A stretch of 64,000 bases of DNA, from contig NZ_QFGA01000003.1 in the NCBI RefSeq assembly GCF_004369205.1, positions 310,001 through 374,000 on the forward strand, read 5' to 3'. Positions 25,446 to 51,965 of the stretch are shown here, one piece after another; position 1 is the stretch's first letter, and every line of letters starts with the position of its first letter. The notes under the pieces were generated by a model that was not told where the DNA came from, made no database searches, and saw only the letters and a program-made list of their open reading frames with translations. This stretch comes from Pelotomaculum schinkii (GTDB taxonomy: Bacteria > Bacillota > Desulfotomaculia > Desulfotomaculales > Pelotomaculaceae). A program made the translations under genes and the position numbers.

Positions 25446-25583
25446 TGACCGCTGAGATTGAACAGTGTCTCCGTTTGAAACTGGACACCCTTTCCGGCAA
25501 AGTTGAACACCGGATATGACCTTTCTGCTAAATTGAATTTATGCATCTGAAAGGTGCAAATAAATTCAAGGAGGGTCATAGAG

Positions 25584-27056
25584 ATGACCAGTTACAAAGA
25601 GATTCTGCGGCTACATAGCCTCGGAATCAACAACAGCCGCATTGCGTCTGGATGCGGATGCTCTCGAACCACGGTTATTAACGTGCTTCAAAGAGCAAAG
25701 GATCAAGGGCTAAGTTGGCAGACAGTGGCCGAAATGTCCGACAAGGAGTTGTCACAGCGCCTTTTTTCTTCGGAGAGCGCTAAGCCCGCGTACAAAATGC
25801 CGAATTACGACTACATCCATCGTGAGATGGCGAAAAGCGGTGTGACCTTAACTCTGTTATGGCTTGAATACTGCGACCAGTGTCGCGAATCCGGGCAAGT
25901 ACCGTACAAGTCGACCCAGTTCAACAAATATTACGCTGACTATGTGAAAAGCACCAAGGCAACCATGCACATTCACCGTAAGCCTGGGGAAATCATGGAG
26001 GTAGACTGGGCGGGACAAACCGCCAGGATCATCGACACAGACACGGGAGAGATTATCCAAGCCTATGTGTTTGTGGCTGCCCTGCCATACAGCGGCTATG
26101 CCTATGTGGAAGCCTTCCTTTCACAAAATCAGGAGAGCTGGATTACCGCCCATATCAACGCCTATCGCTTCTTCGGTGGAATCACTCGCATTATGGTACC
26201 GGACAACTTAAAAACCGGCGTGGAGAAGGTGACGAAAGGCGAAGCAGTTATTAACAAGACCTATCAGGAGATGGCTGAACATTATGGTACAGCGGTTATT
26301 CCATGCAGAGTTAGGGCTCCCAAAGATAAACCCACGGTAGAAGGATCGGTCGGCATCATCTCAACATGGATACTCGCTGCTCTGCGTAATCAGCAGTTTT
26401 TATCGTTACGAGAGCTGAATGCTGCCATTCGGGAAAAGCTAATGGTTTTTCTAGAGAAACCTTTTCAGAAGAAGAACGGGAGCAGAGCCACCTTGTTCGA
26501 TGAGGAAAAACCCTTCTTGCTGCCGTTGCCCTTAAAGCCATTTGAATTGGCGACCTGGAAGATTGCCACTGTTCAATACAATTACCATATCAGTGTGGAG
26601 ACCCAGAAGTATTCGGTGCCGTTTGAATACATCAAGCAGAAAGTTGATGTCAGGATTACCCGCAATGTGATTGAGGTCTTCTTCCAAGGCAATCGCATTT
26701 GTTCTCATCCCCGGCTCTATGGTAGGAGCAATCAATACAGCACCCTGGAAGCCCATATGCCACCAGATCATCAAAAATATGTGTCTTGGAACGGCGACCG
26801 CTTTAAATCCTGGGCAGCCAAAATCGGTGAGAATACAAGCGCTGTCATTAACCTGTTTTTAGGAAGTCACAAAGTCGAGCAGCAGGGCTACAAGGCTTGT
26901 ATGGCTCTTTTGAAACTGGCCGACAAATATTCGGTGGAGCGCCTTGAATCGGCCTGCACCAAAGCATTGTCCTACACTGTACAGCCTAGCTTGAAGAGCG
27001 TTCAGGCCATCTTAAAATCCGGTCAGGACAAGCTGCCGAAAGAAACCCCGGGCCAT
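25584..27056 (+). pseudogene. istA: IS21 transposase IstA, interrupted
   Basis: 491 codons before the insertion. N-terminal HTH (YKEILRLHSLGINNSRIA), the rve/DDE catalytic core with EVDWAG (Asp), VPDNLK (Asp) and KPTVEGSV (Glu), then the C-terminal Mu-type domain (LALFDEE-like RATLFDEEKPFLLPLP). The start ATG has aaggaggg. The frame is broken after codon His at 27056 by IS110; the natural tail (ending GADYY, a usual IstA terminus) resumes at 28919-28977. Only a hybrid 3' end read from IS110 would be made. Confidence 0.9.
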
Positions 27057-27518
27057 TCCTCCCTTAATAGTCTTCGGTTATCTTTAAATATCTCCGCTTT
27101 TCTTAGATTTTCACTTTTTATTCGGATAGCCTATCTCTTGTTATTTACATCAATGTGTAATTATGGATGATGATGTTTAACTTTCACCAAGGCCGCATGT
27201 TTTTTTGTATCAAGGCCAGTGGGATTCCACATCGTCTCCTGGCAGCAAACCTCCCACATCTTCCTGGGTCTTCGCCCTAAATACCTTCGTCCTGCCTATC
27301 CAAGAGGTGGAACGTCAGTCATGCTCCTAGACCGGGTCTATGCCCTAATGGAATAATTCAACCTGACTGTCCCGGGCTCTCCGTTTTCAAAGTGCGATAA
27401 AAACCTGTAGATAACTATTGGGGGCAGTCACATCTTCGTCTGAATGGCCGCGGCTAATTCCACTACGATGATGTGCTTTCGTTAATCTGTATCGTTTATC
27501 AGGATGTTCTCAGCGTTT
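27057..27518 (-). ncRNA. Candidate bridge-RNA region of IS110 copy 2
   Basis: The 462-base non-coding end downstream of the transposase, the same length as in copy 1. Inferred guide-RNA locus by analogy with IS1111-group elements. Confidence 0.4.
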
Positions 27519-28799
27519 TCATGCGGCTATTTTAACCGGCTGTTGAATATCGCCCATCATCTTCTCAGGATTGTAGTCAACACCCTTGCTCAGAATGGTG
27601 TAGAATACCCGGATGAGTTTGCCGCAGAGGGCGATAATGGATTGCATCTTGTTTAGCGGGTTTTTTTCCCTTGTTAGATTGCGTTGGTGTAGTTCCTGGA
27701 ACTCCGGGTTTTTACCCAGGATGGCAATCATGGCCATGAACAGCCCATGCCTTAATCGCTTCCGCCCCCGGTGACTGATAGTGGTCTTTCCTTTGTGTTT
27801 GCCGGAGCTGTTCTCAACCAGGTTACAACCAGCCAGTTTTTGTATCTGGCGAGGGTGTTCGAACCTGTGGATATCACCGGTTTCGCCGACAAAGGTTGTG
27901 GCTGTAACCAAGCCCACTCCCTTGATTTTCAGAAGTTTGGCTGCATTCGGCACCTGAAGCAGTAGTTCCAACATTAGTTGTTCTAAGCGTTCATGTTGTG
28001 CATGGTACAATTCATATTCTGCAAGCAGGTTCTGCAGGCTGGCATCCGAAGCTACATGGCCGGTGGTTCTGCCAATGCTGTTGGACGCTGCTTTTACCAG
28101 CGCTTGCGCTCTTTTTATGCCTACGGAACGTTTCACAACTGTCCTCCATGTGGCCAGTATTTTGTCTGCGCCCGCTTCCAAAACCTTTGCTGGTGTCGGG
28201 AATATTTTAAGTGTCAGCAGTGCTGTTTTTCCTGTCCATTTCTTAAAAACCCCTGCAAACTCTGGAAACCGGATATCCAGCCAGCGAACAACCCTGTTGT
28301 GAGTAGCATTTAACCGCTCTTGAAGCCGTTCCCGTTCAGCCACCGCTTCCCGCAGTTCCTGATAGATGTCGTCGGGTATGTACACATCCCGGTAACGCCC
28401 GTCTTTTACTAACATGGCGATGGTTTTCGGATCCTTTCGGTCATTCTTGGTAGGGCTGTTGTCATCCAGTTCCTTGGTTCGTTTGACATGGAAAGGGTTG
28501 ACTATTGCAAGTTTATGACCCTTGCGCTTTAGGTGGTCCCCCAATGAGAACCAGTAATGTCCAGTGGGCTCAAAACCGGCGATGACTTCGGTCTTTTCTT
28601 GCTGCTTGCAGATGTCCCGCATCCATCGGTCAAGGTGTTGAAATCCTTCCGCCGTGTTGCTAAATATCAGCAGCTTGGCCAGTTCAATCCCTCTGTAATC
28701 AAAGGCTCTTGCATAATGGGTTTCTTTTCCAATATCGATTCCGACCACCAAGGTTTCAATTTTTATTTGCGAAATTTTCTCGTTTTGTGTACGCTTCAT
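27519..28799 (-). CDS. IS110-family DEDD transposase (copy 2)
   Basis: Identical protein to copy 1 (426 residues from ATG 28799): DEDD domain with GIDIGKETHYA, FEPTGHYW and NDRKDPKT, and the C-terminal Ser in NSSGKHKG. Complete and presumably active. Confidence 0.95.
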   Translation of the reverse strand: MKRTQNEKISQIKIETLVVGIDIGKETHYARAFDYRGIELAKLLIFSNTAEGFQHLDRWMRDICKQQEKTEVIAGFEPTGHYWFSLGDHLKRKGHKLAIVNPFHVKRTKELDDNSPTKNDRKDPKTIAMLVKDGRYRDVYIPDDIYQELREAVAERERLQERLNATHNRVVRWLDIRFPEFAGVFKKWTGKTALLTLKIFPTPAKVLEAGADKILATWRTVVKRSVGIKRAQALVKAASNSIGRTTGHVASDASLQNLLAEYELYHAQHERLEQLMLELLLQVPNAAKLLKIKGVGLVTATTFVGETGDIHRFEHPRQIQKLAGCNLVENSSGKHKGKTTISHRGRKRLRHGLFMAMIAILGKNPEFQELHQRNLTREKNPLNKMQSIIALCGKLIRVFYTILSKGVDYNPEKMMGDIQQPVKIAA

Positions 28800-28918
28800 A
28801 TAGAGGCGCCTCCTCAATTTGGTTTTGTGCCTTTCTTGGCTGGATCAGCACAATACCATTTTATTGGTGAGCGTCTCTTTTTTCAAAGACCGTTTCTAAT
28901 GATTACAGGTATGCTCCT

Positions 28919-28977
28919 CTGAGTTTGGACTCACACGAGGAGCCGATTACTACAGCAGGAGGGATGGAAAATGCTAA
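28919..28977 (+). pseudogene. istA: 3' tail of istA beyond the IS110 insertion
   Basis: The frame EFGLTRGADYYSRRDGKC then stop carries the conserved GADYY end of IstA. It overlaps the istB start by seven bases (ATGCTAA), the usual istA/istB arrangement. Confidence 0.8.
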
Positions 28978-29717
28978 ACGATTCAACCGTAGCCAAGCTT
29001 CACGAAATGAAGCTTAGTGTCATGGCTGCAGCATTCCGGGAACAGCTCAAAAACGCAAACTTGTCTGACATGGCTTTTGAAGAACGCTTCGGTCTGCTGA
29101 TCGATGCCGAATGGGCAGCCCGTAAAAACAATCGGCTGTCGCGCTTGATCAAAAACGCGGGTTTTGCCTTCAATGACGCTTGTATTGAGAACATTGAGTA
29201 TCATGACGATCGCAAACTCGACAAAGCTCAAATCATCCGCTTGGCTAGCTGTAACTACATCCAAGAAGCCCATAACATCATAATCCTTGGAGCCACGGGT
29301 AGCGGAAAAACCTACCTCTCAAATGCTTTTGGCATGGCTGCCAGCCGAAACTTTTACACGGTTAAATATGTACGGCTTCCCGATCTGCTGGGTGAATTGG
29401 CCATTGCACGCGGTGAGGGGACATACCGCAAGGTCATCAAAGCTTACAAACAGGTAAAGCTGCTCATTTTGGATGAATGGCTTCTGTTTCCGCTCAAGGA
29501 AAGCGAAGCCCGCGATCTGCTTGAGATCGTAGAATCTCGTTACAAAAAAGCTTCTACCATATTCTGTTCCCAGTTTGAGATCGGCGGTTGGTATCATAAA
29601 ATTGGCGAACCGACACTGGCCGATGCCATTTCAGATCGCATTGTGCATGATTCCTACACCATTTTTATCGACGGTAAAAACTCTATGCGGGAGCGCAAGG
29701 GTATTGCCAACAGATAA
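28971..29717 (+). CDS. istB: IS21 helper ATPase IstB
   Basis: 248 residues. AAA+ helper of the IS21 transposase: Walker A LGATGSGKTYLSNAFG (about 103-118), Walker B LLILDEWLLFPL, sensor region STIFCSQFEIGGWYHKIGEP and the end RIVHDSYTIFIDGKNSMRE. It starts after aggaggg and is intact, but its partner IstA is disrupted, so this copy cannot transpose by itself. Confidence 0.95.
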   Translation: MLNDSTVAKLHEMKLSVMAAAFREQLKNANLSDMAFEERFGLLIDAEWAARKNNRLSRLIKNAGFAFNDACIENIEYHDDRKLDKAQIIRLASCNYIQEAHNIIILGATGSGKTYLSNAFGMAASRNFYTVKYVRLPDLLGELAIARGEGTYRKVIKAYKQVKLLILDEWLLFPLKESEARDLLEIVESRYKKASTIFCSQFEIGGWYHKIGEPTLADAISDRIVHDSYTIFIDGKNSMRERKGIANR

Positions 29718-30832: not shown

Positions 30833-32290
30833 ATGGATATTTGGCAAATGAGCCTTTCTGGGGCTGTCCTCATTAGCGCCGTTGTTATCGTCCGTGCGCT
30901 TACCCTGCACAAACTGCCGAAAAAGACGTTTCTTGTTCTGTGGGGCGTAGTGATTTGCCGCTTGCTCATTCCCTTTTCCATTCCGTCGCGTTTCAGCTTT
31001 TACACGAGTATCGACATGCTGAAACGGGCAGTTACGGAAACGACGGCTTTCACTGCTCCTGTAAAAACGACGGGCATCCCCAATATGGGCGTTGCTCCCG
31101 ATCTGGAGCATACCATTGGGATTGGCGCGCCAGTCGTATCCGTTTTGCCCGTTACGGTCATTTGGCTGGCTGGCATGTGCGCCTGTGCCTTGTTTCTCAT
31201 CGTGGCCTATATCAAATGCCGCCGGGAATTTCAAACCGCCCTGCCAGTCACGAATAACTTTGCAGCCCATTGGCTGCGGGAACATCTGATGCGGCGGACT
31301 GTCCAGATAAAGCAATCCGATAAAATCAAAGCGCCGCTGACCTATGGGATCTTCCGACCCGTGGTGTTATTGCCCAAAACAACAGACTGGACGGACGAAA
31401 CAAGGCTGCGGCATATCCTTACCCATGAATTTGTGCATATCAAGCGGTTTGACGCGCTGACCAAGCTATTGCTGGCATCCGCTTTATGCATCCACTGGTT
31501 CAACCCTCTGGTGTGGCTAATGTATGTGCTGGCAAACCGTGACCTTGAGCTGTCCTGCGATGAAACCGTGGTGCAGACGTTCGGGGAAACCATGAAATCA
31601 GCTTACGCTATGACGCTCATCGGCCTGGAGGAAAGGAAGAACAGGCTACCCCCCTTGTGCAACAATTTCAGCCAAAACGTTATGGAAGAAAGGATTGTGT
31701 CGATTATGAAAATGAAGAAAACTTCCCTGATCGGAATGATACTGACCCTTGCTTTGATTATTGGCGTGCCCGCTGTATTTGCTACCTCTGCCAATACGGC
31801 AGGACAAACGGATGACCAGGACCCTTCCGTTCGTCGGCTTGTGCTCCTTAGAGCTGCTAATATAGATGACCAAACTGCCAGGGCCATGTCTGGTCAAGCC
31901 ACAATGTCAATATTTGATCAAGCAACTGGGAAAGACAGGATCAGCTGGGACGAAGGGAAAACTTGGATGACCGTGGAGTGGTATAGCTATGACGAATACA
32001 AAACATGGCTGGAACAGGAAAAGGAAAACCTGCAAGCGGTTGTAGATTACGAACAGTCTTTGACTGGCGAAAAGGGCCGGCCGGTCTCTGGCGACCGGTT
32101 TGTGTGGAACCAGGGATTAATGGATGAGGTCGTCCGTGAATACGAACGGGTTTTGCGGGATATTAAAAACGGGGCGCTGGTCACAAAGTCAATTGATGGG
32201 CGCGATGTTGATGCGAGCATGCTGGACGATGACGATGATGTTATGATGACATTTGCAATCGAAAACAGCGGTTTCAAACGCACCTGGTGA
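30833..32290 (+). CDS. BlaR1/MecR1-like M56 membrane metalloprotease
   Basis: 485 residues. Four TM helices (near 5-22, 35-55, 100-125, 285-305) enclose the M56 zinc protease with HEFVH (HExxH) in LTHEFVHIKRFDALTKL and the downstream ELSCDETV. The C-terminal extracellular part (about 310-485) is not the penicillin-binding sensor of BlaR1; it contains ISWDEGKTWMTVEWYSYDEY and an acidic DDDDD run. So it is a sensor-protease for an unknown envelope signal that would inactivate the BlaI protein. Confidence 0.88.
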   Translation: MDIWQMSLSGAVLISAVVIVRALTLHKLPKKTFLVLWGVVICRLLIPFSIPSRFSFYTSIDMLKRAVTETTAFTAPVKTTGIPNMGVAPDLEHTIGIGAPVVSVLPVTVIWLAGMCACALFLIVAYIKCRREFQTALPVTNNFAAHWLREHLMRRTVQIKQSDKIKAPLTYGIFRPVVLLPKTTDWTDETRLRHILTHEFVHIKRFDALTKLLLASALCIHWFNPLVWLMYVLANRDLELSCDETVVQTFGETMKSAYAMTLIGLEERKNRLPPLCNNFSQNVMEERIVSIMKMKKTSLIGMILTLALIIGVPAVFATSANTAGQTDDQDPSVRRLVLLRAANIDDQTARAMSGQATMSIFDQATGKDRISWDEGKTWMTVEWYSYDEYKTWLEQEKENLQAVVDYEQSLTGEKGRPVSGDRFVWNQGLMDEVVREYERVLRDIKNGALVTKSIDGRDVDASMLDDDDDVMMTFAIENSGFKRTW

Positions 32291-32433: not shown

Positions 32434-32466
32434 ATGGTTAGAATTTTACTACAAGGAGTTGATACC

Positions 32467-32757
32467 ATGCAGATTAAACCGTCCGCAAGCATCCGGCAGA
32501 ACTACAATGAGATAGCGGATTTGTGCAGGTCTACAGGTGAGCCGGTGTATCTTACCAAAAACGGCGAGGGTGATCTCGTGGTGATGGATATAGAAGCGTT
32601 TACCCGCCGTGAAAAAATGTTAAAGCTGCGGGAAGAACTGCTGGCCGTCGAGGAAGACCGTCTGGCTGGACGCGCCGGAACAACGCCGGATGAACTGGAC
32701 AGCTATCTGGACAGCATTATTGATGAGGTGGAACATGGAAAAGAAGCCCCAGTATAA
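32467..32757 (+). CDS. Phd/YefM (RelB)-family antitoxin
   Basis: 96 residues. Phd/YefM fold: IKPSASIRQNYNEIADLCRS, TGEPVYLTKNGEGDLVVMDI, EAFTRREKML. It has the same type as the pair at 24.0 kb but clearly diverged. Start ATG 32467 after aaggagt. Overlaps the toxin start by 23 bases. Confidence 0.9.
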   Translation: MQIKPSASIRQNYNEIADLCRSTGEPVYLTKNGEGDLVVMDIEAFTRREKMLKLREELLAVEEDRLAGRAGTTPDELDSYLDSIIDEVEHGKEAPV

Positions 32758-33052
32758 GGTGATTGTTTCCGATCGCGCCCGCCAAATGCTGGCGGGTCAT
32801 GTCCGTTTTCTGGCGCAGAAAAGTCCCACCGCCGCCCGCAAAATCAAAAACGACCTGATGGACGCCATCCGTTCCCTGCACCAAATGCCGGAGCGTTTTC
32901 CGTTTCTGGAGGCCGAGTTTATTCCGCCAAACAAATACCACAAGATGTTCGTTGAGAAATGGTATCTCATTTTATACCAAGTTAAGGATCAGACGGTATA
33001 CGTTGACTACATCATGGATTGCAGGCAGGATTATGGCTGGCTGGTACGGTAG
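32735..33052 (+). CDS. RelE/ParE-family toxin
   Basis: 105 residues: MEKKPQYKVIVSDRARQMLA, then HVRFLAQKSPTAARKIKNDL, PERFPFLEAEF, and the end TVYVDYIMDCRQDYGWLV. The last part is the strand-Arg-Gln-Asp pattern of ParE/RelE proteins. Start ATG 32735 (gaggtgg upstream) inside the antitoxin gene. Its last 61 bases are duplicated at 10915-10975. Confidence 0.88.
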   Translation: MEKKPQYKVIVSDRARQMLAGHVRFLAQKSPTAARKIKNDLMDAIRSLHQMPERFPFLEAEFIPPNKYHKMFVEKWYLILYQVKDQTVYVDYIMDCRQDYGWLVR

Positions 33053-34826: not shown

Positions 34827-34922
34827 TTGACTGATCTGAAAACGATTTTGGCCATCGCGCTTTGCCTTGTGATTATCAGCGGAGCGGCATATCTGCACAG
34901 GAGAAGCATGGACCGGAATTAA
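34827..34922 (+). CDS. Candidate 31-residue membrane peptide
   Basis: TTG start five bases after aaaggagg; encodes (M)TDLKTILAIALCLVIIS followed by GAAYLHRRSMDRN. One TM helix and a basic tail, typical of small membrane peptides or toxins. It overlaps the truncated HigB frame and may instead be the start of a lost gene. Confidence 0.35.
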   Translation: MTDLKTILAIALCLVIISGAAYLHRRSMDRN

Positions 34923-35140
34923 GGGAACCTTACGTTAAGCCGATAAAAGGCAAAGGCCTTTTTGAACTGAGAATCAAATTCGCGTCGGATATCAGCAGGA
35001 TATTTTATTTCACATATTGCCAGAAGACTTTTGTACTGCTTCATGGTTTCACCAAAAAAACCGAAAAGACGCCGCAAAGAGAAATTGAACGGGCACTGCG
35101 TTATAAAGAAGATTATGAAAGAAGGTGTAATAATGAGTAA
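34895..35140 (+). pseudogene. HigB-type toxin, 5' truncated
   Basis: Encodes only the later two thirds of a phage-derived Gp49/HigB (RelE-superfamily) toxin: EKHGPELREPYVKPIKGKGL, FELRIKFASDISRIFYFTYC, LLHGFTKKTEKTPQREIERA. The first 30-40 residues are missing and replaced by unrelated sequence. An ATG at 34862 could start a hybrid protein, but the fold would be incomplete. Its antitoxin gene follows intact. Confidence 0.75.
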
Positions 35141-35417
35141 AGCAGGAGCAAAGTTTTCCGAAGTGAAAGAGCTTTTAATGAAGGACGAAGAATTCAAGGC
35201 GGAATACGAAAAGCTGAAACCGCGCTATGATGTGATTTCGCAAATCATTGAAGCGCGAACCAGCCAAAATATTACCCAGGAAGAACTGGCTCTTCGGGTT
35301 GGGACCCAGAAATCCAATATCAGCCGCCTGGAAAGCGGAACCTACAATCCATCCCTGGACTTTCTGTCGAAAGTTGCCCGCTCCCTTGGCAAAGAGGTGC
35401 AGGTTATATTGAAATAA
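35133..35417 (+). CDS. higA: HigA-type XRE antitoxin
   Basis: 94 residues. C-terminal Cro/C1 HTH: ISQIIEARTSQNITQEELAL, RVGTQKSNISRLESGTYNPS, LDFLSKVARSLGKEVQV. The N-terminal helix KELLMKDEEFKAEYEKL is typical of HigA partners of Gp49-type toxins. Start ATG 35133 overlaps the toxin stop. A broken relative lies at 8231-8317. Confidence 0.88.
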   Translation: MSKAGAKFSEVKELLMKDEEFKAEYEKLKPRYDVISQIIEARTSQNITQEELALRVGTQKSNISRLESGTYNPSLDFLSKVARSLGKEVQVILK

Positions 35418-35681
35418 ATATTATGAAAGTCACAAAGAACCGCGTGATGGCACAGATGGCAGTAAAAAAGGCACTGAGAGATCAGCGCCTTTTTCTATGA
35501 TGATAAAAGGGAAATGTTAGTAATAAGTACTGTAATTCGTTGATTCAGAGAAAGAAGTATAATATGATTAGATTGTCATTATAAGGAAATCTTTGAGTTA
35601 TCAATATAAAGTAAAAGTAAAGGAAAATGCTAGAATAGACTCAGATTTTGTCTTTTCAATTTTATATTTGGAGGGAAAAAC
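35418..35681. other. Intergenic region before the two-component system
   Basis: No gene seen. AT-rich; contains several possible -10 hexamers (for example tataat-like text near 35560) but no pair I can defend. Confidence 0.4.
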
Positions 35682-36377
35682 ATGTTAAATAGAGTTTTAA
35701 TCATAGACGATGATAAAGAGCTGTGTGCTTTGATAAAGCAAAGCGTAGCGGCTGAAAATATAGATTCGGATCACTGCTATTCTGGCGCGGACGGGCTGTC
35801 CATGCTTGAAAAAAATGATTATCAACTCGTCCTTTTAGATGTGATGATGCCGGGGATGGACGGCTTTGAGACCATGGAGAAAATACGGAAGAAAAGCAGC
35901 GTTCCCATCCTGATGCTGACCTCCAAAAATGACAGCACATCAAAGGTTCACGGGCTACGCTCCGGCGCGGACGACTATCTGACAAAACCCTTTAATACGG
36001 AGGAACTGATCGCCCGCGTACTTTCTCTGATCCGCCGGTATACCCGTTTCAACCTGGCTGGAGATCATTCGCAGCCGCTGACTTATCAGGGGCTGACCAT
36101 AGACATGGACAGCCGGAGCGTCACCACGCAAAACGGGATATTTGAACTGCCGCCGAAGGAATTCGATCTGCTGCTGTTCTGCGCGAAAAATCAGGGGAAG
36201 ATTTTGACGAAGCAGCAGATTTACGAGGAAGTTTGGGGCGAGCCTTACGTTTACGATGACAGCAACATCATGGCGATCATCAGCCGGCTCCGCAAAAAGA
36301 TCGAACCCGATTCCGGCGCACCCTATTATATCCAGACGGTAAAGGGAATCGGCTACCGCTTCAACAAGGAGGTATAG
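35682..36377 (+). CDS. OmpR/PhoB-family response regulator
   Basis: 231 residues. Receiver domain with IIDDDKEL (acidic pair), phospho-Asp in LVLLDVMMPGMDGFE, Thr/Ser in MLTSKND and Lys in LTKPF; C-terminal winged helix with PPKEFDLLLFCAKNQGKILT and SRLRKKIEPDSGAPYYIQTV. Three bases before the histidine kinase gene. Probably binds the 11-bp repeats upstream of the ABC transporter. Confidence 0.93.
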   Translation: MLNRVLIIDDDKELCALIKQSVAAENIDSDHCYSGADGLSMLEKNDYQLVLLDVMMPGMDGFETMEKIRKKSSVPILMLTSKNDSTSKVHGLRSGADDYLTKPFNTEELIARVLSLIRRYTRFNLAGDHSQPLTYQGLTIDMDSRSVTTQNGIFELPPKEFDLLLFCAKNQGKILTKQQIYEEVWGEPYVYDDSNIMAIISRLRKKIEPDSGAPYYIQTVKGIGYRFNKEV

Positions 36378-36380
36378 GCC

Positions 36381-37304
36381 GTGATTCTCGACGTGACATT
36401 AGGCGTATTGCTTTGCCTTGCCCTTCTGTTCGGTGCGATCTGCATGGGAAAGCTTCTCGGCGTCAAGCGGCAGCTCAAAGACATGACGGATGCTCTCAAC
36501 GACATTGAAGCTGGAAACGGAAACCGGAGAATCCTTGCCACAGGCAATGAGCTGACCGCCGACCTATCCTATAAAATGAATGAAATTGTTTACCGTTACG
36601 AGGAACAGCTTTCAGGGCTCAGGGCGGCGGATGAAACCAACCGCCAACTCATGACCAGCCTCTCCCATGATGTGCGGACGCCGCTCACTACCCTGATCGG
36701 ATATCTGGAAGCGGCGCACAGAGGCGTTGTCACAGGGAAAGAGCGCGAGGACTATCTGGAAATCGCCAGACGCAAGGCCCATGACCTGAAGGACTATATC
36801 GACGTCCTGTTTGACTGGTTCAAGCTCAATTCCAGTGAATTCACCTTGTCCATCGAGCGGGTGGAGCTTGCGGAGCTGACGCGGAATATCCTGAAAGACT
36901 GGATACCCATCTTTGAAGAAAATCATCTGGACTACGAAATCGAAATTCCGGAAAAACCGCTGTATGCGAAAGTGGACCTGGACGGATATGCCCGCATCGT
37001 CAACAATCTGGTCCAGAACGTCATCGCTCACAGCAAAGCCACGCAGATCAGAATTGAAGTAACGCAAAATGAAAAGGAAATTGAAATCCGTATCGCGGAC
37101 AACGGGATCGGAATCGAGAAAGCGGATTTGCCGCACATCTTTGAGCGGCTGTATAAATGCGATAAAGGGCGCTCCGATAAGGGAAGCGGATTGGGGCTGT
37201 CAATTGTCCGGCAAATGGTTGAAAAAATGGACGGCAGGATCACCGTCCAAAGCGAACCAAATCAATATACGGTTTTTACCGTCTGTTTCCCATCAAGGAA
37301 TTGA
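36381..37304 (+). CDS. Sensor histidine kinase with one N-terminal TM helix
   Basis: 307 residues, GTG start after ggaggt. One TM helix (LDVTLGVLLCLALLFGAIC), a HAMP-like linker, the H-box SLSHDVRTPLTTLIGYLEA, N-box NLVQNVIAHSK (Asn-Asn-Val variant), G1 IADNGIGIEKADLPHIFERL and G2 GSGLGLSIV. It lacks an extracellular sensor domain, the intramembrane-sensing type that works with peptide-antibiotic ABC transporters, consistent with its neighbours. Confidence 0.9.
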   Translation: MILDVTLGVLLCLALLFGAICMGKLLGVKRQLKDMTDALNDIEAGNGNRRILATGNELTADLSYKMNEIVYRYEEQLSGLRAADETNRQLMTSLSHDVRTPLTTLIGYLEAAHRGVVTGKEREDYLEIARRKAHDLKDYIDVLFDWFKLNSSEFTLSIERVELAELTRNILKDWIPIFEENHLDYEIEIPEKPLYAKVDLDGYARIVNNLVQNVIAHSKATQIRIEVTQNEKEIEIRIADNGIGIEKADLPHIFERLYKCDKGRSDKGSGLGLSIVRQMVEKMDGRITVQSEPNQYTVFTVCFPSRN

Positions 37305-37306
37305 GA

Positions 37307-37338
37307 AAATCCCTGTCCGCGGGCAGGGATTTCTTTTT
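37307..37338 (+). terminator. Terminator of the two-component operon
   Basis: aaatccctg / cagggattt stem (37307-37315, 37324-37332) then ctttttg. Confidence 0.85.
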
Positions 37339-37347
37339 GCCAAAATT

Positions 37348-37408
37348 GCAAGGTTAATGCAAGGTTAATGCAAGGTTAATGCAAGGTTCCGGCAAGGTTA
37401 ATGCAAGC
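37348..37408 (+). repeat. Tandem 11-bp repeats: likely response-regulator operator
   Basis: Unit gcaaggttaat at 37348, 37359, 37370, a variant gcaaggttccg at 37381, again at 37392, and a partial gcaagctt at 37403. The 11-base period equals about one helical turn, so all units face the same side of the DNA. It sits 50-100 bases before the ABC transporter start, where an OmpR-type activator would bind. Confidence 0.85.
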
Positions 37409-37452
37409 TTGGCATGTTACACTGGTTTCAGCAAGAAAAGGAGGTTCTAAGT

Positions 37453-38376
37453 TTGAGTGATTTCATGATTGAAACCAAAAATCTTACCAAACAATTCGGT
37501 GAGCAAAAAAGTGTCGCGGGCCTCAATATCCATGTGAAAAGAGGCCGTATCTACGGCCTGCTTGGGCGGAATGGAGCCGGAAAAACCACGACGATGAAAA
37601 TGCTGCTGAACCTGACGCGGCCCACTTCCGGAGAGGTTTATATTTTCGGTAAGAACATTCAGGGAAACGAAAAGAAAATCCTGCCCCGCATCGGCAGTTT
37701 AATTGAAGCGCCGGGATTTTACCCGAATCTGACAGGCACGGAAAACCTAAAAATCTTTGCCCAGCTCAGAGGCGTTTCCCGGCGTGACGCCGTTCAAAGC
37801 GCGTTGGATGTTGTCGGACTGCCATACGGCGATAAGAAACTGTTTTCTCAATACTCGCTTGGCATGAAGCAACGCTTGGCTATCGCCCTTGCTATCATGC
37901 ACGACCCGGAACTGCTGATTTTGGACGAACCGATCAATGGGCTTGACCCGATTGGCATAGCCGAAGTCCGTTCTTTTATCCGGGAATTGTGCGACGCAAG
38001 AGGGAAAACCATTCTGATTTCAAGCCATATCCTTTCGGAAATTTCGCTCTTGGCCGACGACATCGGCATCATCGACCACGGCGTACTGCTGGAGGAAGAA
38101 AGCCTTGCCGAGTTGGAAGAAAAAAACGGAAAATATATTCATTTCGTCGTTTCTGACACAGCGCAGGCAGCCAGAATCTTGGAGAGGAACTTTGGAGCGA
38201 AAAACTTTACGGTGGAGAACGACCACAGTTTGCGCCTGTACGATGGCAATCTGTCGGTGGCCGCGCTGAACCGCGCTTTTATTGAAAACGGATTGGAGGT
38301 AGCCGAGGCTTATACCTCTGAGGATACCCTGGAGGATTATTTCAAGCGCATAACCGGGGGTGAGGGCATTGCGTAA
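37453..38376 (+). CDS. ABC transporter ATPase, lantibiotic-immunity/BcrA type
   Basis: 307 residues from TTG 37453 (ggaggt seven bases upstream). Walker A LLGRNGAGKTTT, signature YSLGMKQRLAIALAIM, Walker B LLILDEPINGLDP and switch ISSHILSEI. The C-terminal extension of about 80 residues (AARILERNFGAKNFTVE...EDTLEDYFKRITGGEG) is typical of BcrA/LanF ATPases. It works with the two permeases downstream in self-protection against peptide antibiotics; the inferred signal is such a peptide. Confidence 0.9.
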   Translation: MSDFMIETKNLTKQFGEQKSVAGLNIHVKRGRIYGLLGRNGAGKTTTMKMLLNLTRPTSGEVYIFGKNIQGNEKKILPRIGSLIEAPGFYPNLTGTENLKIFAQLRGVSRRDAVQSALDVVGLPYGDKKLFSQYSLGMKQRLAIALAIMHDPELLILDEPINGLDPIGIAEVRSFIRELCDARGKTILISSHILSEISLLADDIGIIDHGVLLEEESLAELEEKNGKYIHFVVSDTAQAARILERNFGAKNFTVENDHSLRLYDGNLSVAALNRAFIENGLEVAEAYTSEDTLEDYFKRITGGEGIA

Positions 38377-39151
38377 TCTGCTTCTCTGCGAATTTAAGAA
38401 ATTTAAGCGAAAGAAAAATTTTTTTCTTGCGCTGCTGGCCGCTTTTGTTTTCCCTGTCTTGGGTTCGGCTTTGGTTGCGGGGCGTCCGAGCGCGGATTTC
38501 GCCGGCATGATCAGCTTCGCTCGTGAGGAGAGCAACTTTCTACTCCTGATGCCGCTGCTGATTATCCTGGCGGCCAACCTGTTTTTTTCTGAGCATTATA
38601 ATGATACGCTCAAAAACCTGCTTTGCATCCCCGTATCGAAAAATCGGCTGGTTTTTGTGAAGCTGCTGGTACTGCTGATCTTTTCCGTCGTATTCCAGAT
38701 TGTTGGATTTGCGATCAGCACGGGAATGACTGTTTTGTATCATATTCCGCTGACAGATTTCTCTCTGCAATTTGTCTTAACGGCGGCGACGGGGATATTG
38801 ATATGGGCGGCTGCGCTTCCCTGCATTGTGCTGGTCATCTGGTTCAATAAAAGCTACATTCTTTCCGTAATCATTGTGTTCTTTTATACGCTCCTGAATT
38901 ATGCCATGCATTTCAGCGACGCGATTCTGATGCAGCCTTTGGGGTTCAATGCCGGGACGCTCATGCCGATCCCCATGATTTTCCGCTGGCTGTACCAGTT
39001 CAATATTCCGGTTGGTGAAATTCAGACGGCGTTCTACAATCGTTTTAGCCCATATTTTGCGTCTACCTCGGCATGCTTTGTCGTACTGCTGATCGAAGCG
39101 GCGGTTTGCGCTCTTTTGATGATTTGCATCTACCGGCGCAGAGAAATATGA
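38360..39151 (+). CDS. ABC transporter permease, LanE/MutE-like
   Basis: 263 residues; GTG 38360 overlaps the ATPase end (a TTG at 38369 with gggggtga is the alternative start). Six hydrophobic segments in the ABC-2 pattern, beginning LRNLLLCEFKKFKRKKNFFL (cytoplasmic basic lead-in) with ending RRREI. FSEHYNDTLKNLLCIPVSKN is the family's first-loop motif. Confidence 0.85.
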   Translation: MRALRNLLLCEFKKFKRKKNFFLALLAAFVFPVLGSALVAGRPSADFAGMISFAREESNFLLLMPLLIILAANLFFSEHYNDTLKNLLCIPVSKNRLVFVKLLVLLIFSVVFQIVGFAISTGMTVLYHIPLTDFSLQFVLTAATGILIWAAALPCIVLVIWFNKSYILSVIIVFFYTLLNYAMHFSDAILMQPLGFNAGTLMPIPMIFRWLYQFNIPVGEIQTAFYNRFSPYFASTSACFVVLLIEAAVCALLMICIYRRREI

Positions 39152-39166: not shown

Positions 39167-39991
39167 ATGATGCTGCGCATTATAAAGACCGAATTTGAGA
39201 AATTAAAGCGGTTCCATATCCTGCTGGTCGGCCTGATCGGGATGGCTTTTCCCGCAATCCTGTCCGTATTTACGCAGGCGGTTGTCATGGAGGAAGCCAA
39301 AGTACAGAATTTTGATTTTGCGGCCCTGTTCAACAGTTCCATCTGGAACAGCGTTACGATTTTCATGCCCGTGATTTTTACGCTGATCGGCGGCTATCTG
39401 ATCAACAGAGAATATACGGATAATACCTTGAAAAGCATCTTGCCGGTCCCGGTGACATTTCGGCGTCTTTTGTTCGGAAAGCTGATTGCAATGGGGCTTT
39501 TAAGTGTATTGTTCGGGTTTTACAGCTTTGCGGTCACACTGATTGTCGGGCTTCTGTCGGGCGTACCGGGCTTGAGCGTTGCCGTTCTCATCAAAAGCCT
39601 TTTGCAAATGGTAGGGATTGCAGCCTGCACATATATTGCGATTCTGCCTATTATTGCATTTACAAGCAAGATGCCGGGGGCCTTTATGGGCGGAGTAATT
39701 GTATCCTTTATCCTTGGATATTGCGCCATGTTTATCAAGAACGCCCTTGGGTGCAGCCTGTACCCGATCCTGGCGGGATTTACCGTTATCAGGTTCGATA
39801 CAGGTACATTCATGAACACTTCCGAACCGGCAAATTTGATGCTGTCCTTCCTGTCATTGGCGGTGATGCTTTTGCTCGCGGTGACGATCGTGATGCTGAC
39901 AAATCCGCCGCAAGCGGCTTCAGAGAATCAAAAGCATAAAAAGCATAAAAAGTCGAATCTTTTCCTCCGGCCGGGGCAAAGGAGCCGATGA
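39167..39991 (+). CDS. ABC transporter permease, LanG/MutG-like
   Basis: 274 residues, start after gaaggagagg. Six TM segments; opens MLRIIKTEFEKLKRFHILLV and has INREYTDNTLKSILPVPVTF as its loop motif, parallel to the preceding permease. The C-terminus is strongly basic (KHKKHKKSNLF). Together with the ATPase it would make an ABC-2 exporter or immunity pump. Confidence 0.85.
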   Translation: MMLRIIKTEFEKLKRFHILLVGLIGMAFPAILSVFTQAVVMEEAKVQNFDFAALFNSSIWNSVTIFMPVIFTLIGGYLINREYTDNTLKSILPVPVTFRRLLFGKLIAMGLLSVLFGFYSFAVTLIVGLLSGVPGLSVAVLIKSLLQMVGIAACTYIAILPIIAFTSKMPGAFMGGVIVSFILGYCAMFIKNALGCSLYPILAGFTVIRFDTGTFMNTSEPANLMLSFLSLAVMLLLAVTIVMLTNPPQAASENQKHKKHKKSNLFLRPGQRSR

Positions 39992-40021
39992 TTTTTATAC
40001 AAGGAAAGGTTGGTGATTTCA

Positions 40022-40270
40022 GTGAAAAGGCTACTCTTTATGGCCGCAGCGGTTGTCCTCTTGGCTATGGGGATTCTTACGGGCTGTTCAAAAGATGAAA
40101 TTCTCGGCGCATACAATCACGCCGTCCAAGCGGCCGGTGACGCGCAATTGACCGGCAACTGGTCTTTGGAGGGAAAAAGAAAATATGGCGTGGATCACTA
40201 TACAGGCACCTATACTGCCGATTATGAGAATTTTTCAGGAACAGAGTATATGGGACTATTGCGGTCATGA
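40022..40270 (+). CDS. Lipoprotein of the ABC cluster, probably truncated
   Basis: 82 residues from GTG 40022: KRLLFMAAAVVLLAMGILTG then lipobox LTGC; mature part AYNHAVQAAGDAQLTGNWSL, KYGVDHYTGTYTADYENFSG, TEY. Lipoproteins next to such ABC clusters continue for a further 80 or so residues after FSGTEYLFGG; here the frame leaves the family after GTEY and stops. Likely a 3'-truncated gene. Confidence 0.6.
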   Translation: MKRLLFMAAAVVLLAMGILTGCSKDEILGAYNHAVQAAGDAQLTGNWSLEGKRKYGVDHYTGTYTADYENFSGTEYMGLLRS

Positions 40271-40313: not shown

Positions 40314-40346
40314 GCCCGATTGGTTTTTATCCAGTCGGGCTTTTTT
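40314..40346 (+). terminator. Terminator, and start of a segment repeated at 53.8 kb
   Basis: gcccga / tcgggc stem with a T-rich loop, then TTTTTT. The 110 bases from here closely match 53825-53940 in front of the Tn916-type sigma gene, so this may be a relic of another such element. Confidence 0.7.
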
Positions 40347-43710: not shown

Positions 43711-44607
43711 TCAAGCAGCTTCATTGAGCTTGCTTTTGAGGTAATAGGATACTGGGCTGGCGCCACCCAGCGAAGAATGAGGCCGGCGGGTGTTGTAAGT
43801 CTTCATGTAGTCATTCAGCATAATTCTCAACTCTCGAGGTGTTTCGTACTCACTTATGTAGATTCGTTCATATTTCAAGGTGCGGAAGAATCGTTCCGTT
43901 CTGGCATTATCCAGACATTGGCCCTTGCCATCCATAGAGATCTTTACTCCATTATCTTCCAACAACTTGATGTAGTCTGGATTAGTAAAATGGCTGCCCT
44001 GGTCAGAATTGATAATTTCTGGCTTCTGGCAACTTAGAGCACGCTTTAGACATCTCAGGACAAAGGATTTATCCAATGTACTTGACAGCTCGTAATCTAC
44101 AATATAGCGGCTATACCAGTCGATGATGACAAACAGATACATGAACCCTTTCTTCATGCGCAAATACGTTATATCCACACCCCAGACCTGGTTTGGCCTG
44201 ATGATTTTAAGGTTGCGCAGCAGATAGGGGCGGATATATTGAGCATGGTAGCGTTTGCTCAGATTGGGCTTGGGATACAACGTATAAATACCCATATCAC
44301 GCATAATTCGGCGAACTCGTTTTTTGTTAATCACAAGTTTATGTTCTCTTCTGAGAATGGCCGTGATGGTACGGTAGCCCCAGGTCGGTTCATCTGTATG
44401 AATTTTATCAATCAACCGCATGATTAATAACTCCTCATCACTAATTGTCCTGACGGGAGGTTTCCTATATGCGCTACTCCGATTGAGCCCCAGCAACTCA
44501 GCCTGACGCTTTACCGTGATATTTTTATGGCTAAGCTCAACAAAGGCCTTACGGTCGTTTACGGTTGAGGATTTCGTCAGATTTTTTTTTAAGCCAGTCA
44601 ACTTCAT
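43711..44607 (-). CDS. IS3 transposase OrfB (DDE integrase domain)
   Basis: 298 codons. HTH_21 region WGYRTITAILRREHKLVINK, then the rve core with GVDITYLR (Asp), NSDQGSHFTN (Asp) and NARTERFFRTLKYE (Glu, 35 residues later). Normally made as an OrfAB fusion by -1 frameshifting on the A9 run at 44581-44591 (aaaaaaaaa on this strand). Confidence 0.93.
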   Translation of the reverse strand: MKLTGLKKNLTKSSTVNDRKAFVELSHKNITVKRQAELLGLNRSSAYRKPPVRTISDEELLIMRLIDKIHTDEPTWGYRTITAILRREHKLVINKKRVRRIMRDMGIYTLYPKPNLSKRYHAQYIRPYLLRNLKIIRPNQVWGVDITYLRMKKGFMYLFVIIDWYSRYIVDYELSSTLDKSFVLRCLKRALSCQKPEIINSDQGSHFTNPDYIKLLEDNGVKISMDGKGQCLDNARTERFFRTLKYERIYISEYETPRELRIMLNDYMKTYNTRRPHSSLGGASPVSYYLKSKLNEAA

Positions 44608-48714: not shown

Positions 48715-49413
48715 TTAACTCTTAAACTGTGGATAAAGCCGCTTTAATTTGGTTCTTGCATCATCGGTCGTGAATTGCCAGTCAACACCTTTTTGTTTTT
48801 TGTTTCTTGCAGTTTCCCATTCCAACAGTTCAAGGCGGAGGAAATTGATTGACGAAATTCGGCGTTCCAGACACTGTTTGGACATTACGCTCAGTTCGAT
48901 TTCGGCTATGTTAAGCCAGCTTCCATGCTTTGGCGTGTAATGGATCTCAAGGCGTTTAGCAAGGCTTCTGGAAACATCTGGCGGGAATGCTTCATAAAGT
49001 GATGCCATGGTATGAGTGTTCAGGTTATCCATCACCAGGCGGATCTTTTGTGCTTTTGGATAATGAACCTCAAGCAGTTCCCGGACCTGGTGTGCCCAGT
49101 CAACCCGAGTTCTTCTTTCACAGACCGTTACATGTCTCCAACCTGCCAATGGTTCTGTGAAGACAAAGATGCTGCAGGTTCCGTTGCGGACATACTCACC
49201 GTCTTGACACTCAGGCCTTCCGGCCTTCATCGGGATCGGGGTTCTGTTCTCACCAAGGAGCTGGTACGGCTTTTCGTCCATGCAGACGACCGGATATAGT
49301 CTGCAATATTGCTGCTGGTACAGCTCCAAAACATCTTCCATACAGGCGACGAAGGCGGCGTTCTGTTCAGGCGGAATACACCAACATTTACGGAGATGTG
49401 GGTTTAGTTCGTT
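48715..49413 (-). CDS. IS630 transposase, C-terminal DDE part
   Basis: Continues NELNPHLRKCWCIPPEQNAA and holds the DDE core: VVCMDEKPYQLLGE (Asp), LVMDNLNTHT (Asp) and NIAEIELSVMSKQCL (Glu). Joined to the N-part by a +1 shift in the A run; some IS630-family elements use programmed frameshifting, otherwise this copy is dead. Confidence 0.85.
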   Translation of the reverse strand, partial: NELNPHLRKCWCIPPEQNAAFVACMEDVLELYQQQYCRLYPVVCMDEKPYQLLGENRTPIPMKAGRPECQDGEYVRNGTCSIFVFTEPLAGWRHVTVCERRTRVDWAHQVRELLEVHYPKAQKIRLVMDNLNTHTMASLYEAFPPDVSRSLAKRLEIHYTPKHGSWLNIAEIELSVMSKQCLERRISSINFLRLELLEWETARNKKQKGVDWQFTTDDARTKLKRLYPQFKS

Positions 49414-50003: not shown

Positions 50004-51965
50004 TCACCACTCCCAGGATAGCGCCTCGTCAAGTGTTTTCGGGACCTCTTGCATGACGATATCTTCCACCGCATTTTGAGCAACATTGTAGACTAAGTAA
50101 GCAACAATATGGTTGCCATTAATCGCAGGATAACAGGAAAGAAGCAGTTTTTTACCGTCCGGCGACCATTGGATGCGAGGACGAAGGTAGATTCCGCTGA
50201 CTTCTTGATCAAATATACCGCGTTCGTTGAACGCCGCCAGAACTGTCTTCGGGTTTACCAGCCTATAAAACTGATGGTTTTGGGAATCGTACAGATAAGC
50301 ACAATAGTCCCTTCCCGACTTTCCATCCAAAGTCTTCATATTGATAAACGCCCCGTAAACGCTGTCGGGTGACCAGCAGACCCGTCCGAATAAACCGCTT
50401 TCATCCAGAGTATAGATCCGGCCCTCATCGAAAACCCTTAAGCTTGCCGCCGCTTGTTTTGCCTCATCATACTCTATCTCGGCAACCTTTTTAGCATCAA
50501 AACTCGCATAGGCTTTTAAAGAATATTGGTCCCCTTGAGCGCAGGCCATCAGAAATCGTTCCAGTGATTCCGCCCGACAGGGAAAAAATATGTAATTTGA
50601 TCCACTGTGGCTGAGCGAGGCGGTATATCGATCAGGCAAGTTTTTTTCCTGGATATAGTGCAAATCAAAGCGCAAACCGTTATCCAGGGTGTAACGCCAT
50701 GCCGTATAGTGATAGGTCTCATCTTTTACCACTTCATCGGCCTTATAGCCGTTGATTATATCGCTAAAAGTTAATTCTCCATTTGCCAGCAGGCGCAGTG
50801 ACTCTATATCCAAGGTGCGTTGGCTACCGGCTTCGTTTAACATAGGGGAAGCACCTGCCTTATCGGACAAGGTTAGCCCCCCGTCACCCACCACTTGTAT
50901 GGTTGCTCCCTGGTTTTGCTGATCATCAGCCTTGGCGCTCGTTAAAGTCATCACGCCCAGTAAAATAACCAGCCCTGCGGCCAGAACCGAAATAGTCTTT
51001 AATGTCTTGGGGCGATTGATAATCATGCTAATTCTTGTCTTAATTCTGCTTTTCCCGTTTGCCATTGCTGTAGCCGTATTAAGAATGGCAACTTTCTTGT
51101 GACAGGCGTTAAACAAGATAAGGAGTGTATGACCATATTCAAGGCTTTCCTTTTCATCCAGGTAACGCAACACCCGGTCATCGCAGCTTAATTCGGAATC
51201 ATCGCGGGAAGCCAGAGCCGCCATCCATACCAGGGGATTAAACCAGTAAATAATACAACAAATATTCCGAAGCAGAGAGAAAAGATTGTCTTTCTGTTTG
51301 AAGTGGCAAAGCTCATGCAGCAATACATGTCTTAGTATTGTCCTGTCTGTTTTGGCCTCCGGCGTGATGGCAATGTAAGAGCGAAACAGGCCGACCAGGC
51401 AAGGGGAAGTCAAGTGATGGGAAATAACAACCGGCAATGGAGTTTTTATCCCGACCTGCCGGCATAGGTCACGGTAGAAGGGGATCTGGTCAAATGATAG
51501 CTCTATAGCCGACTGGCGCAACCTGCGTAGGAATACCCTGTTCAGGATTAGCATGTATACAAACACAGCCAAAGCACCGATTACCCATAAGATAAACAGC
51601 ATTTGGAACAAGTCGATTTTTTCTATATAACTAGTATTTTTTTCAGTTCTAACCTGTACCGCTGTGTTGCTTTGCGGCTCGGAATATGTCAGTGGCTCAA
51701 TAAAAGGAGAAGAAAATGTTTGCAGATCCGATCCATGGGTTTCAACCGTTGTAATAGGCGGAGGTTGGATAATGTTCATAACACTGAATGGGCTGGAGAT
51801 ATTCAACGGGATCAGAAGCCGTATGAGTACCAAAATCCAAACCGCATATTGCCAGGTGGGTCGTAGTTTTCCCCTAAACACCATGCGCAATACCAGCAGT
51901 ACGGCAATCAACAGGGATGAGGTCAAAGTAATTTGCAGTAAAAGGCGTAAAATATTCTCTATCAT
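50004..51965 (-). CDS. BlaR1-like M56 metalloprotease with propeller-like C-terminus
   Basis: 653 residues. The N-terminal membrane part has four TM helices (about 8-28, 37-55, 107-127, 310-330) and the zinc site HELCH in ILRHVLLHELCHFKQKDNLF with SELSCDDRVLRYL. The extracellular C-terminal half (about 340-653) is not penicillin-binding: it has WSPDSVYGAFINMK and WSPDGKKLLLSCYP, the blade signature of TolB/DPP-like beta-propellers. Last gene of an LCP-BlaI-M56 operon, overlapping blaI by four bases. The signal is presumably an envelope state. Confidence 0.88.
   Translation of the reverse strand: MIENILRLLLQITLTSSLLIAVLLVLRMVFRGKLRPTWQYAVWILVLIRLLIPLNISSPFSVMNIIQPPPITTVETHGSDLQTFSSPFIEPLTYSEPQSNTAVQVRTEKNTSYIEKIDLFQMLFILWVIGALAVFVYMLILNRVFLRRLRQSAIELSFDQIPFYRDLCRQVGIKTPLPVVISHHLTSPCLVGLFRSYIAITPEAKTDRTILRHVLLHELCHFKQKDNLFSLLRNICCIIYWFNPLVWMAALASRDDSELSCDDRVLRYLDEKESLEYGHTLLILFNACHKKVAILNTATAMANGKSRIKTRISMIINRPKTLKTISVLAAGLVILLGVMTLTSAKADDQQNQGATIQVVGDGGLTLSDKAGASPMLNEAGSQRTLDIESLRLLANGELTFSDIINGYKADEVVKDETYHYTAWRYTLDNGLRFDLHYIQEKNLPDRYTASLSHSGSNYIFFPCRAESLERFLMACAQGDQYSLKAYASFDAKKVAEIEYDEAKQAAASLRVFDEGRIYTLDESGLFGRVCWSPDSVYGAFINMKTLDGKSGRDYCAYLYDSQNHQFYRLVNPKTVLAAFNERGIFDQEVSGIYLRPRIQWSPDGKKLLLSCYPAINGNHIVAYLVYNVAQNAVEDIVMQEVPKTLDEALSWEW

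Follow-up and report, generated by a model that had tools for sequence, protein, structure and literature searches.

A six-unit array of 11-bp direct repeats, a probable regulator operator, upstream of a CprABC/LanFEG-like transporter operon in Pelotomaculum schinkii

Organization of the locus and the repeat array

The window, a 64,000-nucleotide stretch of the Pelotomaculum schinkii genome, contains on its forward strand a two-component system and, directly downstream, an ABC transporter operon. The first gene of the pair (35682 to 36377) encodes an OmpR/PhoB-family response regulator, the proposed activator, with the receiver and winged-helix domains (PF00072 and PF00486, Trans_reg_C, both above cut-off) that characterize the operator class discussed below; its presumed recognition helix spans approximately residues 195 to 207. 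The second gene (36381 to 37304) encodes a histidine kinase in which hydropathy shows a single hydrophobic segment, at the N-terminus, and an intrinsic terminator of the regulator-kinase operon follows at 37307 to 37332. The top-scoring models for the two proteins are VanR and VanS, though far under their cut-offs (209 bits against 350 for the best VanR model, and 177 against 400 for VanS). A search of solved structures returned distant regulators only.

The proposed regulated operon opens with a gene (37453 to 38376) that has an AAGGAGG Shine-Dalgarno sequence followed by a TTG start at 37453, and encodes a LanF/CprA-like ABC ATPase of 307 aa. The best of 185 families for this protein is the lantibiotic-protection subfamily TIGR03740 (NCBIfam), with 243 bits against a cut-off of 309.75. 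It is followed by two genes for ABC2_membrane_4 permeases, identified by Pfam, of 263 aa (38360 to 39151) and 274 aa (39167 to 39991); the second has a weak MutE/EpiE match (TIGR03732, 30.6 bits, below the cut-off of 145.2) and the first has none. Next lies a small lipoprotein-like gene of 86 aa (40010 to 40270), shorter than related open frames of 133 codons in the nearest relative seen (G075) and 162 codons at locus L149, with related sequence in at least 11 of 80 loci described below. A terminator-like hairpin located by a terminator search (40314 to 40340, forward strand) may mark the operon end. Elsewhere in the window are a Phd/YefM-ParE toxin-antitoxin pair identified by Pfam and a second possible pair made up of a short open frame and an HTH_3 protein, in which the toxin is a guess (32434 to 33052 and 34862 to 35417), and two genes for BlaR1-type M56 peptidases (30833 to 32290 and 50004 to 51965).

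A preliminary description of this DNA had called the transporter lantibiotic-immunity-type. The resemblance to TIGR03740 bears this out in part, but the score falls short of the cut-off and no lantibiotic-synthesis Pfam family was found among the 28 window proteins scanned. The operon has one ATPase, two different permeases of similar size and a two-component system, here located upstream, and because this gene set matches the CprABC type though the family cut-offs are missed, we refer to the operon as CprABC/LanFEG-like. The Clostridium difficile CprABC system, as described in the available part of PMC5786555, likewise has one ATPase, two similar-size permeases, a two-component system and an adjacent lipoprotein, a likeness in gene content. 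The single permease of BceRS-BceAB systems, with its large extracellular domain, is approximately 630 to 650 aa long (same source, available part), whereas the window has two of 263 and 274 aa. The window differs from the Cpr system in that its regulator and kinase genes lie together directly upstream, whereas CprK and CprR are unlinked in C. difficile, and in that its kinase has one hydrophobic segment.

Between the terminator of the two-component operon and the ABC start, as previously described, lies a series of tandem repeats, the first of which begins 15 nt after the terminator stem. Units 1 to 5 (37348 to 37402, forward strand) read GCAAGGTTAAT three times, then GCAAGGTTCCG, then GCAAGGTTAAT again; these are putative operator units of the form GCAAGGTTNNN with trailing triplets AAT, AAT, AAT, CCG and AAT. 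The exact 11-base period with one variant unit is evident from the sequence itself and from Tandem Repeats Finder, which places the array at 37347 to 37407 with period 11 and 5.5 copies, its score of 101 being the top one among the 23 rows reported for the window. The earlier count of five units is correct as far as it goes, but it overlooked a sixth, promoter-proximal unit, GCAAGCTTGGC, at 37403 to 37413 on the same strand, which is in register and matches seven of eight core bases, such that the array comprises six units from 37348 to 37413. In G075 and many relatives with four units the promoter-proximal unit reads GCAAGGTTGGC. The idea that all sites share one face of the DNA holds approximately: with 10.5 bp to a helical turn, an 11-bp period shifts each unit by about 17 degrees, which adds up to about 86 degrees over six.

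A chance repeat is ruled out by comparison with shuffled sequences and expected counts. Single units with at most one mismatch are present eight times in the window against 1.73 expected, a number reached in none of 100 shuffles, and two-unit matches with at most three mismatches are present five times, every one inside the array, against 0.22 expected. The genome-wide search suggested in the preliminary description, run with a two-unit pattern, found five places with at most one mismatch, all of them within this array. A further 37 places have exactly two mismatches, compared to 24 with a reversed control pattern; at one of these (C1:2262547) the spacer matches too, and it lies inside a 576-codon open frame. 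A genome-wide repeat family was thus rejected, with no place outside the array having one mismatch or fewer to two units and the best-looking weaker match residing in an open frame. An autoregulatory copy in front of the regulator gene was also rejected, since the region 35380 to 35760 contains neither a unit with at most one mismatch nor a two-unit match with at most three.

Association of the array with the regulator and the promoter

Regulator orthologs were collected at E≤1e-70 irrespective of the presence of an array and with the window excluded, from 113 class-level and 398 phylum-level genomes and from three further sets, each centered on one hit (21, 26 and 246 genomes); the sets overlap, and among the last three only that of 246 added orthologs. 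Arrays were scored as matching bases in three consecutive 11-bp units, with at least 20 of 24 required. Eleven of the 14 orthologs have an array between the kinase and the ABC gene, whereas none was found with 29 less related regulators (36 to 41% identity, one from each of 29 relatives), for which the best score anywhere was 17 of 24 (Fisher test, 6e-8). This comparison supports the earlier proposal that the array is the site of the neighboring response regulator. The three orthologs without an array in the 3.7 kb examined (L211, L213 and L214) are 50 to 53% identical to the window regulator, and yet an array is present in L212, at 52%. In L213 the ABC gene is present without such a repeat, and L211 and L214 have no ABC gene within the approximately 580 nt examined behind the kinase.

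Among the 113 class genomes, ortholog and multi-unit array coincide in just two, G000 and G075. Two-unit matches with one mismatch are found at 18 single places in 15 other class genomes, compared to three with the reversed control; G099, G100 and G102 are among these 15, and some of the places are alike within one genus. Perfect two-unit matches are present in three of the 398 phylum-sample genomes: G000, G427, where the match is at the ortholog locus, and G294, which has one such match and no related genes within the 3 kb examined.

A second collection came from a contig scan that required three perfect units, and comprises the 80 loci listed out of 119 matching stretches. Conservation of three units and much of the absence of a -35 are built into this set, but the remaining unit, the -10 and the neighboring genes are not, and the 11 protein-seeded loci are free of this effect; many of the scanned loci are closely related, and counts from them represent non-independent events. 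Of the 80 listed loci, 74 have a matching operon context. The other six (L084, L090, L097, L105, L111 and L141) look like chance and were dropped before counting, five of them without a match to the window's five proteins and L084 with weak ABC matches only. In 68 of the 74 listed loci no more than 254 bp lie between the starts of the array and the ABC gene; in five the ABC gene is second, behind a permease-like gene (at +927), and in L098 it is cut off. A kinase match lies just upstream of the array in 68 of the 74, and five begin too near the array to tell. In L155 (array at 1644) a permease pair lies upstream with no regulator within 1.6 kb upstream, and this array may be a second target, in tandem, of a single regulator. 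Some genomes carry arrays at two separate operons, such as L080 and L094 in AP018536.1, and L087 and L107 in Flintibacter muris; two same-unit arrays in one genome raise the question of cross-talk between the copies.

Downstream of the sixth unit is a -10 hexamer, TACACT (37418 to 37423, forward strand), with an extended TG (TGtTACACT). No -35 is present, the best match being two of six bases, and with no sigma-70 site listed there a constitutive promoter was rejected. Among the protein-seeded orthologs, each of the 11 that carry an array shows a TA....T hexamer whose start lies exactly 15 nt beyond that of the last unit, and in all 11 the best -35 match at a spacing of 16 to 18 nt is two of six or fewer; a TG precedes the -10 in five of the 11 and is thus not general. 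The larger set, among the matches listed, has the hexamer at +15 in 77 of 78 loci (L098 was too short to include) and the TG in 62 of 78, and has a -35 match of two of six or fewer in 78 of 78, partly by construction. The last two units thus lie in the place that a -35 and spacer would take, and both sets show a trait of PhoB/OmpR-type operators, a site that supplants the -35 with constant spacing to the -10.

The number of units differs modestly among loci. Counting a unit at five or more of eight core bases, 53 of 79 loci among the matches listed have four units and 25 have three (including L093, which is clipped by the locus start), with six in the window alone; of the 11 seeded orthologs, four of which are also among the 79, seven have four units and four have three. 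The regulator of G075 is 90% identical to that of the window, and its array has the triplets AAT, CCG, AAT and GGC. Alignment of the two reveals a 22-bp gap corresponding to two additional AAT units in the window, together with substitutions from GGTT in G075 to GCTT in the last unit and from TAGACT to TACACT in the -10; one base of the terminator stem-loop also differs. Two 11-bp slippage steps fit this better than a single 22-bp duplication, because the latter would have copied the CCG unit, and past slippage is the likely source of the extra units. The earlier suggestion that unit number varies by slippage is thus consistent with the 22-bp difference from G075, but 78 of the 79 listed loci hold three or four units. 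A role of the extra units in offsetting or tuning the altered core promoter is speculation.

Loci were divided according to their regulators into class A, with at least 62% identity (40 regulators, including the window's own), and class B, with 19 regulators below 62%. The class A consensus from 50 loci, with the window left out and L081, L091 and L152 omitted from the logo only, is GCAAGGTTAAT GCAAGGTTgcg GCAAGGTTaAT GCAAGGTTGGc GTGATAGAAT. The triplet is mostly AAT after units 1 and 3, variable after unit 2 and mostly GGC after unit 4, and because of this alternation the sequence suggests that the units work in pairs, with one dimer per 22 bp. Class B loci have three clear units, with a fourth position that is degenerate yet conserved. 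Identity to the window regulator is higher in the presumed recognition helix than in the rest of the DNA-binding domain, both in class A (94% against 76%) and in class B (76% against 53%).

A candidate activator operator and its known relatives

The array, its register to the -10, the absence of a -35 and its co-inheritance with a regulator clade are observed here. We propose, with a probability of roughly 0.88, that the array is a pho-box-type activator operator at which tandem dimers of the adjacent OmpR/PhoB-family regulator would drive transcription of the CprABC/LanFEG-like transporter; the tandem-dimer activator assignment is made because the geometry of CAAGGTT-N4 is that of PHO boxes and PhoP sites. 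Each 11-bp unit, a 7-bp CAAGGTT and a 4-bp spacer, would bind one DNA-binding domain of the regulator encoded upstream. The kinase is presumed to sense an envelope-active peptide and to phosphorylate the regulator, which would then line up in head-to-tail orientation, with one tandem dimer for every 22 bp. In place of the missing -35, the units nearest the promoter, at a constant spacing from the -10, would recruit RNA polymerase for transcription of the ABC transporter operon. There would be room for three dimers on the window array and for about two elsewhere. We infer the binding itself, its dependence on phosphorylation, activation over repression, and the peptide ligand, and cooperative binding of the regulator to the array, which had been expected at the outset, rests on analogy.

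Operators of this general kind are known. At PhoB-dependent promoters the box replaces the -35, and NisR and SpaR, the OmpR-type regulators of lantibiotic systems, have boxes for which, in the case of the spa-box, the spacing is likewise an 11-bp period. The PHO box consists of two 11-nt units, in each of which seven bases are conserved and four less so (PMC4415409, available part), and M. tuberculosis PhoP binds cooperatively, as a tandem dimer, to 7-bp motifs set strictly 4 bp apart, with greater affinity for three or four repeats (PMC4832192, from the portion available). The array has the same 7 + 4 arrangement in 11-bp direct repeats, with a head-to-tail motif of about 7 bp repeated in all six units, but differs from PHO boxes in its CAAGGTT motif, in having six near-perfect units, and in the one local target found as against a phosphate regulon. 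The NisR/SpaR box, TCT-N8-TCT, has an 11-bp period and overlaps the -35 (excerpted text of PMC9958725). The array shares that period and the adjacent OmpR-type regulator, whereas NisR and SpaR have one or two half-site pairs of an unrelated motif in place of a run of four to six units, and no TCT is present in 37348 to 37413. The sites of the C. difficile OmpR-family regulator RR_1586 are 11-nt direct repeats with the consensus unit DRTTAAGNWWW (PMC6222199, available part); these resemble the array in period and in having a clostridial OmpR-family regulator, but have a different consensus unit and different targets.

The regulator could act with the opposite sign, covering the -35 and spacer region to block RNA polymerase until freed on activation. 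The last unit is indeed close to the -10, and RR_1586 repressed two reporters (in the available part of PMC6222199). However, the absence of a -35 in all 11 seeded orthologs with an array, at two of six matches or fewer, suits an activator-dependent promoter, and the functionally analogous CprR exerts positive control over its transporter (PMC10601699, in the text available), making repression unlikely. It is somewhat less probable still that the array serves some other DNA-binding protein, with the adjacent regulator acting at targets elsewhere; 42 matches to the regulator, itself counted, are present in the genome and could also bind, but the array tracks this regulator clade over distant genomes and not the less related regulators, and it is the sole one found in the genome. 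A neutral slippage repeat without function, to which the difference of exactly two units from G075 might point, is very improbable, and is contradicted for the array as a whole by its presence in 11 of 14 seeded orthologs, all at an equal distance from the -10.

An 11-bp direct-repeat operator of an OmpR/PhoB regulator in front of a peptide-resistance transporter is a known kind. The CAAGGTT motif and the six-unit version look to be newly described with respect to the literature searched, in which that on Cpr was covered partly. Searches with GCAAGGTTAAT returned no paper on bacterial regulation, as judged by title, and those with GCAAGGTT and 'response regulator' returned, among the papers listed, none on this system, as judged by title or the beginning of the abstract. 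A description of the operator was not found in the literature searched on HexRK/hexSDF, CprK, ruminococcin A, SpaR/NisR and the PHO box, nor in that on Lachnospiraceae lantibiotic transporters, and the operator sequence is absent from the available parts of a nisin O paper (PMC11811420) and a subtilin paper (PMC8991943).

Probable permease exchange behind a conserved control region

Comparison of the window with G075 (locus L077) reveals marked differences in conservation along the operon. Regulator, kinase and ATPase are 89 to 90% identical, whereas the two permeases are 46% and 39% identical. DNA similarity ends about 15 to 16 codons into the first permease gene, at 38409, and resumes in the lipoprotein gene (40076 to 40247), with one 161-bp piece at 70% in between. 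Among the matches listed, 35 loci have all four genes, and 126 of their 595 pairs are at least 85% identical in both regulator and ATPase; in 81 of these 126 listed pairs the first permeases are 50% identical or less. For L149 and L125 the identities are 99.1, 99.7, 32 and 35%. Four clusters of three or more loci have ATPases at least 98% identical, of which two (five and six loci) are not split by permease, one of 12 loci falls into two permease groups, and one of three loci into three. The 12-locus split is not an artefact of metagenome assembly, because it holds in the eight isolate genomes of the 12. Apparent exchange of the permease pair behind a conserved cassette, with a sharp join after the N-terminus of permease 1, is likewise seen at L144, L110, L104 and L108.

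The converse is also seen, with six of 234 listed pairs whose regulators are 60% identical or less having first permeases at least 70% identical. Because different rates of change alone cannot yield both patterns, recombination is likely, and these sequence comparisons suggest that the control cassette is constant and the permeases are exchanged. We somewhat favor a reading in which the regulator-kinase-array-ATPase block, some 2.9 kb long, serves as a portable induction cassette, passing from one bacterial family to another and recombining with interchangeable permease pairs, so that a fixed sensor and operator would be re-used for transporters of different specificity. The join would lie about 15 codons into permease 1, the array may be the other join in some cases, and the window operator would have been enlarged by one dimer site.

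It is a more doubtful proposition that the array, besides being an operator, is a recombination joint at which two-component systems are swapped in front of one transporter operon. In two of four pairs compared as DNA (L094 with L123, and L114 with L095) the regulators are 53 to 55% identical and the first permeases 89 to 91%, and DNA similarity of 82 to 84% begins within the array (+9) and continues across the transporter. However, similarity between L094 and L139 begins past the array (+63), and that between L154 and L122 is in two pieces; moreover, the alignment ends are soft, few loci are involved, and just six of the 234 listed pairs fit.

Genes of mobile elements lie around the operon at 25554 to 29717, 43711 to 44607, 48715 to 49341 and 55531 to 57006, and include an IS21-type pair, an IS110 element, rve/HTH_21 and DDE_3 transposases and a phage-type integrase; their presence fits horizontal acquisition of the operon. 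No ortholog of the regulator was found in two genus mates, G001 and G002, the latter 77% complete.

These comparisons define a searchable operator for a two-component/ABC system recurrent in many Clostridia and their relatives: GCAAGGTTNNN repeats, the last of which begins 15 nt ahead of a -10. Simple and modular in build, this operator has natural variants of three, four and six units with which the dependence of promoter output on dimer number can be tested. The exchange of permeases suggests that specificity changes by recombination while the control region is kept, which would matter for the acquisition of bacteriocin resistance in gut bacteria.
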